A DNA stretch of 43,247 nt. Source: Methanobrevibacter sp. GTDB taxonomy: Archaea > Methanobacteriota > Methanobacteria > Methanobacteriales > Methanobacteriaceae. Under the pieces are notes generated by a model. That model saw nothing but the letters and a program-made list of their open reading frames with translations, did no database searches and was not told where the DNA came from. Made by a program: the position numbers and the translations under genes. This document shows positions 14,715-17,360 of this stretch, in pieces; the stretch's first letter is position 1; each line of letters starts with the position of its first letter. The stretch lies in contig NZ_JAUNXI010000016.1 in assembly GCF_030539875.1 (NCBI RefSeq), positions 1-43,247 of the forward strand, given 5' to 3'.

Positions 14715-15851
14715 CTACGGTTTCATAGCCAAATCCATTATACTGAATGCATCACCTTCTTTTCTTGGTGCTTTGCCACCTAAACCGAATGCAGAACTGG
14801 CAAATTCCTTGTTCATTCTTTTTGAAACTTCACCAAAAATTATTTTGTATGCACTGCATTGAGGATCAACTGCCTGAGGTGTTTGGTATGCTACAATTGC
14901 ATTGTAAGGACATCCTCCTTCACAATATTTAACGTACCTGCATTTTTTACAGTTCTCATCAACATAATCTCTGAATTCCTGAAGTTTTGCCCATGCATCT
15001 GAAGTTTTCAAATCATCGAAACTCGGACTGTCAACCACATTGCCTAAAACATAGTCTTCCATTCCAACAAACCGGTAGCAGGGATAAATTGAACCATCAA
15101 ATCCAACAGCCAGTGTTGTTCCTATGCAGTCTGCAAATGTACAGAGAGTTCCTCTTCTTCTAAGTGCACTCTTACAGATATGGTCCAGATCCATTATTGA
15201 AAACTTATCTAAATCGTAAAGGTATTTATCCAGCCAGTCAACTAGGAGTTTTCCATGTTCTTCCTGGTCAAGTGCCCAAGGATCGGCATTATCCCCCCGC
15301 AGAGATGGAAGGGCTGCGTGAATCTTCAAATTCATTTTTTCATTTTTAAAGAAATCATATAATTCATCTGAGAAATCTTTGGAGTAATCAGTTACTGTCA
15401 AAACAAAGTTAATTATCAATCCTTTGCTTTTAGCAAGTTCATATTTAGACATGGTTTTATCAAAATAACCTTCCCCTCTTTGATAATCATTAATATCTTT
15501 AGGCCCGTCAATACTTGTGCTTACAACAACACCATATTCAACGAATAAGTCTATGAGCTCTTCTGTTAAAAGCCAAATATTGCTTTGAAGGGAAAATCCA
15601 TCTAAATTAGGTAGCCCTGACAGTTTTTCCAAAGCTGTTTTGTAGAAATCATAACCTGCAAGAAGAGGTTCACCGCCATGAAATGTGAAATGAACTTTAT
15701 CGTCTCTAAAATCCCCTAACCAGGTTATAATCTGGTCTATAACTTCAATATCCATCATTTCTTTTGTGTTTTCAGAACCCCAACAATATTTGCATCTTGA
15801 TGGACAATTAAGTGTTGGTATAATCATTACATGAAATGTCATATTAACCAT
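14715..15851 (-). CDS. Radical SAM/SPASM enzyme, putative peptide-modifying
   Basis: The 378-residue enzyme has the radical SAM cluster motif CPSRCKYC (Cys16, 20, 23), then the SAM-contacting FHGGEPLLAG and TSIDGP. A C-terminal SPASM region carries CTFADC, a GFDGSIYPCYRF segment, and CKKCRYVKYCEGGCPYN, ligands for auxiliary [4Fe-4S] clusters. This plan is shared by sulfatase maturases and RiPP-modifying enzymes. From memory it fits the methanogen family TIGR04083. The gene overlaps the upstream small four-cysteine protein by 8 nt, and that protein is the obvious candidate substrate. A second in-frame ATG at 15842, just past the overlap, is an alternative start. No sulfatase gene is nearby. 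Confidence 0.88.
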   Translation of the reverse strand: MVNMTFHVMIIPTLNCPSRCKYCWGSENTKEMMDIEVIDQIITWLGDFRDDKVHFTFHGGEPLLAGYDFYKTALEKLSGLPNLDGFSLQSNIWLLTEELIDLFVEYGVVVSTSIDGPKDINDYQRGEGYFDKTMSKYELAKSKGLIINFVLTVTDYSKDFSDELYDFFKNEKMNLKIHAALPSLRGDNADPWALDQEEHGKLLVDWLDKYLYDLDKFSIMDLDHICKSALRRRGTLCTFADCIGTTLAVGFDGSIYPCYRFVGMEDYVLGNVVDSPSFDDLKTSDAWAKLQEFRDYVDENCKKCRYVKYCEGGCPYNAIVAYQTPQAVDPQCSAYKIIFGEVSKRMNKEFASSAFGLGGKAPRKEGDAFSIMDLAMKP

Positions 15852-16053
15852 AAATCTTATTTAATTCATTTAACAATTTTTTCTTCTCATCTTCATCAAT
15901 ATTGTCGTTTACAAAGAAGATATAACCGCATTCCTCGCATTTCACAGTGTTCATTTCTGCATGAGCCCTATGATTGTCTAGCATTTTCCTGTGAGCTATT
16001 TTATCTTTTGAACCGCATTTCGGACATGGAGCTAAAAGTTCTTCAAGTTTCAT
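15844..16053 (-). CDS. Small four-cysteine protein, candidate substrate of the radical SAM enzyme
   Basis: The protein is 69 residues with CPKCG (Cys10, Cys13) and CEECG (Cys39, Cys42), a His-rich middle (HRKMLDNHRAHAE) and an acidic-then-basic tail ending NKIYG. By itself this is a one-zinc-ribbon protein. Its coupling to the SPASM gene makes it a likely peptide substrate; I recall a Cys-rich methanogen peptide family (TIGR04165) paired with such enzymes. AAGGTGA precedes the ATG at 16053. There is no leader-like N terminus, and the alternative is an ordinary zinc-ribbon adaptor protein. Confidence 0.8.
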   Translation of the reverse strand: MKLEELLAPCPKCGSKDKIAHRKMLDNHRAHAEMNTVKCEECGYIFFVNDNIDEDEKKKLLNELNKIYG

Positions 16054-16139: not shown

Positions 16140-17360
16140 TTAGTTTAAAAGCCTTATTATGAATTTGTAAATCGGAAAGCCGATGTGTTTTGCAAATGAT
16201 AATGTGTATTTAAAGCCAGGAAATTCAAATTCTTTTTTAACCTTTTCCAATTCCTCAACAATGTTTAATTTTTGAGGGCATTTCCTTAAGCATTTACCGC
16301 ATCCGTTACATTTACCAGCATTACCTACACTGCCCATTATTCCCCCAACATACTGATAATAATCCATAAGAGACTGGCTTACAATGCCTTTTTTGTTGAA
16401 TAAAAATTTCTCATTGTATATTTTCATGCATTCTGGAATATTCACTCCCTGAGGACATGGCATGCAGTAGCCGCAGGTGGAGCAGTTAATCTTTAGAGAA
16501 TTTCTGATTACCCTTTTAACAAGCTCAACAGTTTGCAAATCCTCAAAAGTCATTGACATTGGAGAAGTTCTATCAGCAATAGCCAAATTTTCATCAATCT
16601 GTTCTAAGCTGTTCATACCGGACAATACGCAGGAAACATTGCGGTTATTTAAAACCCATTCCAATGCCCATTCCGCATTGCTTTTATTTGGATTGGCTTT
16701 TCTGAAAACATCTTCAGCTTCTTTAGGCATGTTTCCTGCAAGAATTCCGCCCTTTAACGGTTCCATAACAAGAATACCCAGACCTTTTGATGCGGCATAT
16801 TCTATTCCCTCAACGCTTGCCTGAACATTTTCATCAAAGTAATTATACTGAACCATTACCATCTCCCAGTCATAGCAATCCACAATAGAGGAAAATTCTT
16901 CCTTAGGACCGTGATAGGAAAATCCGATGTGTCTGATTTTTCCGTCTGATTTTGCCTTTTCTATAAATTTAATCAAATCGCGCTTTAGCAAACGATTCAT
17001 ATTTTTTAAATCCACTGCATGGATTAGATAATAATCGACACAGCCAATATTAAGCCTTTTTAATTGCTCATCCAAGATTTTTTCCATGTCCTCATATTTT
17101 CTAACATTGATTGCAGGCAGTTTAGTGCAAATCTTTACCTTGGATTTCAACTCATCAGTTAGAATCTCACCTAAAAATGTTTCACTATCACCATACAAAT
17201 ATGCAGTGTCAATAAAATTGACCCCGTTTTCAATTGCATGGAAAATGAGTTTTTTGGCATTTTTTCTATCAATCTTGCCGTTTTTTTGAGGCAATCTCAT
17301 AGCGCCAAATCCGAGAGCTGAAATCTCATCTCCCGTTTTATTAACCAATCTGTATTGCAT
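16140..17360 (-). CDS. Aldo/keto reductase with C-terminal ferredoxin domain
   Basis: The 406-residue protein has an N-terminal aldo/keto reductase barrel (residues 1-270; GFGAMRLP start, catalytic Asp/Tyr in FIDTAYLYGDSE, YYLIHAVD, GFSYHG, GILVMEPLKGG). A C-terminal part with CSTCGYCMPCPQGVNIPEC and CNGCGKCLRKCPQKLNI can bind two [4Fe-4S] clusters. This fusion is common in anaerobes and methanogens; the substrate is unknown and electrons may come from ferredoxin instead of NADPH. It is followed by the small-peptide/radical SAM pair on the same strand after 86 nt, but a separate ribosome binding site argues only for loose linkage. Confidence 0.9.
   Translation of the reverse strand: MQYRLVNKTGDEISALGFGAMRLPQKNGKIDRKNAKKLIFHAIENGVNFIDTAYLYGDSETFLGEILTDELKSKVKICTKLPAINVRKYEDMEKILDEQLKRLNIGCVDYYLIHAVDLKNMNRLLKRDLIKFIEKAKSDGKIRHIGFSYHGPKEEFSSIVDCYDWEMVMVQYNYFDENVQASVEGIEYAASKGLGILVMEPLKGGILAGNMPKEAEDVFRKANPNKSNAEWALEWVLNNRNVSCVLSGMNSLEQIDENLAIADRTSPMSMTFEDLQTVELVKRVIRNSLKINCSTCGYCMPCPQGVNIPECMKIYNEKFLFNKKGIVSQSLMDYYQYVGGIMGSVGNAGKCNGCGKCLRKCPQKLNIVEELEKVKKEFEFPGFKYTLSFAKHIGFPIYKFIIRLLN

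Follow-up and report, generated by a model that had tools for sequence, protein, structure and literature searches.

What does the radical SAM/SPASM enzyme of this locus modify? Its gene lies next to that of a 69-residue protein with four cysteines, in a window of 43,247 nt (the whole stretch of DNA that was analysed) from a Methanobrevibacter sp. The initial annotation proposed that, if the small protein is the substrate, the two genes form a methanogen peptide-modification system. The features of the locus are the following.

14715..15842, minus strand: radical SAM/SPASM enzyme of the family TIGR04083 (start taken from homologues; alternative upstream start at 15851)
15783..15806, minus strand: CPSRCKYC, the CxxxCxxC motif for the SAM-cleaving [4Fe-4S] cluster (from the translation; three Cys invariant in 33 aligned homologues)
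14856..15143, minus strand: SPASM domain with eight invariant Cys and an invariant CYR (from the homologue alignment and the translation)
14715..14744, minus strand: C-terminal tail SIMDLAMKP (conserved in the alignment; AlphaFold model)
15844..16053, minus strand: four-Cys zinc-ribbon-like protein of the family TIGR04165, 69 aa (from the NCBIfam score, co-occurrence and conservation)
16012-16026, minus strand: CPKCG of the TIGR04165 protein (motif position)
15925-15939, minus strand: CEECG of the TIGR04165 protein (motif position)

The CPSRCKYC and Cys-rich SPASM motifs of the enzyme and the CPKCG/CEECG motifs of its partner were all found on the minus strand where they had been placed, and the two families named by the initial annotation proved correct. 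In NCBIfam profile searches the enzyme matched TIGR04083 (rSAM_pep_methan) with 589.3 bits (curated cut-off of 300) and the 69-aa protein matched TIGR04165 (methano_modCys) with 87.3 bits (curated cut-off of 60). Both scores are far above the family cut-offs, which excludes chance. The enzyme also matched the Pfam profiles Radical_SAM (PF04055) and SPASM (PF13186), both above cut-off. By motif and domains it is a radical SAM/SPASM enzyme, with a cluster content predicted from its sequence. The 8-nt overlap described for the two genes exists only if the first ATG is used (ORF 14715-15851, 378 aa, minus strand); homologues begin at the second ATG (15842, MTFHVM...), which leaves a 1-nt gap between the genes. 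The gene upstream of the pair (16143-17360) encodes an aldo/keto reductase whose C-terminal part is a ferredoxin-type 4Fe-4S domain. No mention of TIGR04083 or TIGR04165 was found in the open-licence literature, preprints excluded.

We counted the two families, including strong partial matches, in 152 genomes that share the window's phylum and also its class (Methanobacteria). Both were present in 134 genomes and neither in 15. In two genomes, which are 64% and 63% complete, we found the small protein alone, and in one genome the enzyme alone. Among the 96 genomes that were at least 90% complete, 88 had both, seven had neither, none had only the small protein and one had only the enzyme. The genes are non-adjacent in 28 of the Methanobacteria genomes, although separate draft contigs may explain a few of these cases. 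Since the pair is co-inherited even where unlinked, the link is independent of the neighbourhood. The two families work together in Methanobacteria, where they are kept or lost together; the initial annotation was right to suppose a functional link between them.

This partnership does not extend to Halobacteriota. TIGR04083 scored above the cut-off in 132 of 393 genomes, mostly with 640 to 720 bits, i.e., above the score of the window protein, whereas TIGR04165 was above the cut-off in none of the 393 (best score of 30.8 bits). In 31 Halobacteriota loci that we searched, no small Cys protein or ORF is conserved near the enzyme. Since Halobacteriota keep TIGR04083 without TIGR04165, the enzyme has a function independent of the small protein, and on this distribution we rejected TIGR04165 as the general substrate, which it probably is not. 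The initial annotation would have been refuted by a small protein lacking the enzyme in most genomes, but we observed the reverse: none of the 96 genomes at least 90% complete has the small protein alone, whereas the enzyme occurs very often by itself.

The small protein had also been considered as a possible precursor, and its conservation argues against this. In the alignment, only the four CxxC Cys, an MKxEEL-like N-terminus, a DK pair and one Arg are well conserved, and there is no variable core. The protein is usually present once, is strongly conserved and has the pattern of an ordinary zinc ribbon; its conservation fits a zinc ribbon with a structural role, or a rubredoxin-like site. 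The structure model is of low confidence (pLDDT of 63, pTM of 0.46). The Lar-type zinc-ribbon profile PF14354 (gathering score of 28.6) matched the window protein with 32.1 bits and the M. marburgensis protein with 27.3 bits, which probably reflects only a zinc-ribbon pattern that they share. We propose that TIGR04165 is probably a Methanobacteria-specific accessory partner, not a general substrate. A second TIGR04165-like protein, of 74-78 aa and with extra C-terminal Cys, was seen at L126:13872-14096, L127:7936-8172 and L200:1025-1252; it scores 81.8 bits in M. marburgensis, and in Methanothermobacter its gene is 4.8 kb away from the pair.

The distribution and neighbourhood of TIGR04083 in Halobacteriota point to methyl-coenzyme M reductase (MCR), which makes nearly all biological methane. 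The gene mcrA was present in 129 of the 132 genomes with TIGR04083, and TIGR04083 in three of the 165 genomes lacking mcrA (Fisher's test over the 393 genomes, p about 1e-35, a value that ignores kinship in a sample where lineages are unevenly represented). Where both coordinates were available (96 genomes), TIGR04083 was directly downstream of mcrA and on the same strand in 17 genomes, with gaps of 144 to 490 nt, and at most 10 kb away in six others. A class-wide sample provided more mcr-linked cases, including genomes with a 5-kb spacing. Three genomes (G362, G217 and G285) have the order Mmp10 - mcrBDCGA - TIGR04083, and NCBIfam confirmed Mmp10, McrB, McrD, McrG and TIGR04083 in the first of them. 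Mmp10 is the MCR arginine methyltransferase. MgmA, another MCR-modifying enzyme, was recognised by similar clustering with mcr (PMC11796369). The TIGR04083 gene is away from mcr in Methanosarcina, in the window and in the Methanobacteria loci that we examined. Directly downstream of TIGR04083, several Halobacteriota genomes encode a conserved protein (L285:8789-9889, L286:183-1301, L299:14564-15652) in which Pfam finds two B12-binding domains, in two of the three cases tested.

Our best explanation, to which we give a probability of roughly two in three, is that TIGR04083 is an MCR-maturation enzyme that most likely turns Asp450 of McrA into didehydroaspartate, with TIGR04165 as a partner used only in Methanobacteria. 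It builds on computed results, i.e., the families, the fold, the near-restriction to genomes with mcrA, the mcr linkage and the match to the published distribution of didehydroaspartate. This residue lies near thioglycine in the MCR active site and was reported in 2016. Reviews and papers that discuss its biosynthesis still assign no enzyme to it (PMC7581889, PMC8070964).

Didehydroaspartate is present in MCR I and II of M. marburgensis and in the MCR of M. barkeri and M. acetivorans, and absent from those of M. kandleri, M. formicicus, M. wolfeii, M. thermolithotrophicus, M. shengliensis, ANME-1 and Ethanoperedens (PMC9081873, Table 1). The MCR of ANME-2c and 2d also carry it (PMC12413448). 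We assigned genomes to species using McrA matches to MCR structures. Partly from the cited papers, we take 8GF5, 9QQT and 3SQG to be the MCR of M. acetivorans, ANME-2d and ANME-1, respectively. TIGR04083 is intact in Methanothermobacter marburgensis (G144, McrA-II identical to 5A8R over 552/552 residues), in Methanosarcina acetivorans (G535, McrA identical to 8GF5 over 537/537) and in ANME-2d (G515, McrA matching 9QQT with 1231 bits). It is absent from the ANME-1 genome (G254, McrA matching 3SQG with 1126 bits), and no copy exceeds the cut-off in M. jannaschii, which is related to the unmodified Methanococcales. In Methanothermobacter wolfeii (G151, McrA-I identical to 5A8K over 550/550 residues and also exact to 5A8W), an invariant Tyr that directly follows the last SPASM Cys, and is encoded by TAC in each of the seven other Methanothermobacter, is replaced by a TAG stop; this stop removes only about the last 40 residues, including the conserved tail, and comes from one assembly of an unspecified strain.

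The comparison between gene and modification covers few species, three positive (M. marburgensis, M. acetivorans and ANME-2d) and two or three negative. The closest McrA match to Methermicoccus shengliensis among the genomes searched is 77% identical. The closest relatives of M. barkeri among the genomes searched, none of them an exact match, all have TIGR04083 except for a decayed copy in a Methanosarcina-like genome (G474:C47:64335-65450, 210 bits, in-frame TGA), where we predict that the modification was lost. TIGR04083 is also frameshifted, near residue 233, in the genome that we take to be M. thermautotrophicus delta-H (L189, G149), next to an intact gene for the small protein. This predicts an unmodified MCR, unless the frameshift is an old sequencing error.

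Among the orphan MCR modifications in Table 1 of PMC9081873, only didehydroaspartate matches the presence and absence of TIGR04083. N-methylhistidine is present in M. wolfeii and ANME-1, and hydroxytryptophan is missing from both M. marburgensis and M. acetivorans; neither fits the distribution of the enzyme, nor do the modifications with known enzymes. Asp450 is also kept in the McrA of organisms without TIGR04083, hence the residue itself is not diagnostic and its replacement is uninformative as a marker of the modification. Five loci of genomes without TIGR04083 (L264-L268, in G339, G282, G329, G248 and G219) encode McrA in which DLQDQCG is changed to DQQDQLG or DAQDQMG, and therefore miss the methylated Cys too. 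The genome of the window encodes a second McrA (L260, G000:C13:26374-28005) that has GFYVYDLQDQAG instead of the canonical GFYGYDLQDQCG: Val takes the place of the thioglycine Gly, and Ala that of the methylated Cys, in an otherwise normal McrA (975.6 bits).

The AlphaFold model of the enzyme (pLDDT of 89.8, pTM of 0.88) has its closest fold in anSMEcpe (Z of 34.8, with an rmsd of 2.8 A and 25% identity over 346 residues), followed by ChlB and CteB. The three Cys of CxxxCxxC and the eight SPASM Cys, presumed ligands of two auxiliary clusters, are invariant in the 33 aligned homologues. At the position of the catalytic Asp277 of anSME (YPCD in anSMEcpe), all of them have the Tyr of the CYR motif. 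The second-best family of the enzyme is TIGR03942, the anaerobic sulfatase maturase, with 166.8 bits for a cut-off of 349.45. We found no cobalamin-binding domain in the enzyme, in which Pfam identified only Radical_SAM and SPASM. The C-terminal tail, SIMDLAMK in the window and IMxLMxK in many relatives, follows a variable linker and is modelled with higher confidence (pLDDT of about 87-90) than this linker (61).

We infer the substrate residue, the reaction, its mechanism and the role of TIGR04165 as follows. The target would be the first aspartate residue or its neighbourhood in the McrA motif GYDLQDQCG, namely Asp450 in the numbering of M. marburgensis (Asp470 in M. acetivorans), and would become 2,3-didehydroaspartate. 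The radical-SAM cluster would cleave SAM to give a 5'-deoxyadenosyl radical, which would take a hydrogen atom from the Asp, probably from C-beta. A second electron would then pass to an auxiliary SPASM cluster while a base removes the C-alpha proton, creating the C=C bond. Related enzymes provide precedents: anSME abstracts the C-beta hydrogen of a Cys or Ser side chain in a protein, freyrasin-type enzymes act on the C-beta of Asp, and a dehydro-amino acid was proposed as an intermediate (PMC8326336). This chemistry makes it plausible that a desaturation could stop at the alkene. The substrate Asp would be in an extended, not yet folded segment of McrA; recognition before folding is suggested by the position of the residue in the active site and by the extended McrA peptide proposed for MgmA (PMC11796369). 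In Methanobacteria only, the zinc-ribbon-like TIGR04165 would assist, perhaps by docking McrA or by donating electrons. The more specific claim that TIGR04083 is the didehydroaspartate synthase of MCR and depends in Methanobacteria on a dedicated zinc-ribbon protein, TIGR04165, is one that we favour only slightly.

If our best explanation is true, a known but orphan MCR modification gains a testable gene, and desaturation joins the protein chemistry of radical SAM/SPASM enzymes. Methanogens with didehydroaspartate could then be predicted from genome sequences, and a missing part would be supplied for the heterologous production of fully modified MCR. The name of the TIGR04083 family, which implies a peptide product, would be corrected.

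Several other explanations have to be weighed against this one. TIGR04083 may aid MCR maturation by making a different, perhaps undescribed, modification, or may act on McrB or McrG. The mcr linkage and the near-restriction to genomes with mcrA would hold for any residue, but MCRs have been well mapped by crystal structures, didehydroaspartate is the sole listed orphan that fits the presence and absence of the gene, and the enzyme, which has no B12 domain, folds like an oxidase that acts on protein side chains. We regard this explanation as unlikely, if the strongest of the competitors. The view that TIGR04165 is the substrate, and a modified Cys-rich peptide or protein the product of the pair, is somewhat less probable still. 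It draws on the strong co-inheritance in Methanobacteria, even in the 28 genomes where the genes are unlinked, on their adjacency in most genomes, and on the NCBIfam names, which describe a peptide-modifying enzyme and a Cys-rich peptide. The peptide-modification system of the initial annotation does not agree with the many Halobacteriota genomes that have the enzyme but not TIGR04165, nor with the linkage of the enzyme to mcr there, nor with a small protein that has usually one conserved copy, an ordinary zinc-ribbon pattern and no variable core. TIGR04165 could nonetheless be a second, lineage-specific substrate.

The location of the gene away from mcr in Methanosarcina and in the window would also be expected if the enzyme acted on another methanogen protein and its mcr linkage reflected only shared regulation. 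This we find improbable, given that the gene directly follows mcrA in 17 genomes of several lineages and that M. wolfeii and ANME-1, where didehydroaspartate is absent, agree with our best explanation. As for an anaerobic sulfatase maturase making formylglycine, the nearest fold and the second-best family both lead to it, yet the family score is less than half the cut-off and the catalytic Asp is an invariant Tyr. On these two grounds we reject this identity, which now has hardly any probability left. The initial annotation had also thought it less likely for lack of a sulfatase nearby, and we indeed found none among the ten neighbouring genes scanned with Pfam.

TIGR04083 as an MCR-maturation enzyme can be compared with several known systems. 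It shares with anSME (PDB 4K36-4K39) a common fold and the modification of a protein residue in trans by abstraction of a C-beta hydrogen; it differs in being only 25% identical, in scoring under the family cut-off, in having Tyr for Asp277, and in its proposed substrate and product. Like Mmp10 (MamA, TIGR03278) and MgmA, it would modify McrA, and its gene can cluster with the mcr operon. Those two enzymes, however, are B12-dependent methyltransferases, whereas TIGR04083 is a SPASM protein without a B12 domain and a proposed desaturase. CteB and PapB, the SPASM maturases of ranthipeptides and sactipeptides, have a related radical SAM/SPASM fold but act on dedicated precursor peptides, none of which accompanies TIGR04083 in Halobacteriota. 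Finally, both proteins of the window are clear members of the NCBIfam families TIGR04083 and TIGR04165. The names of these families imply a peptide-modification pair, but their distribution and the mcr linkage argue that MCR is the main substrate of the enzyme, and TIGR04165 a lineage-specific partner.
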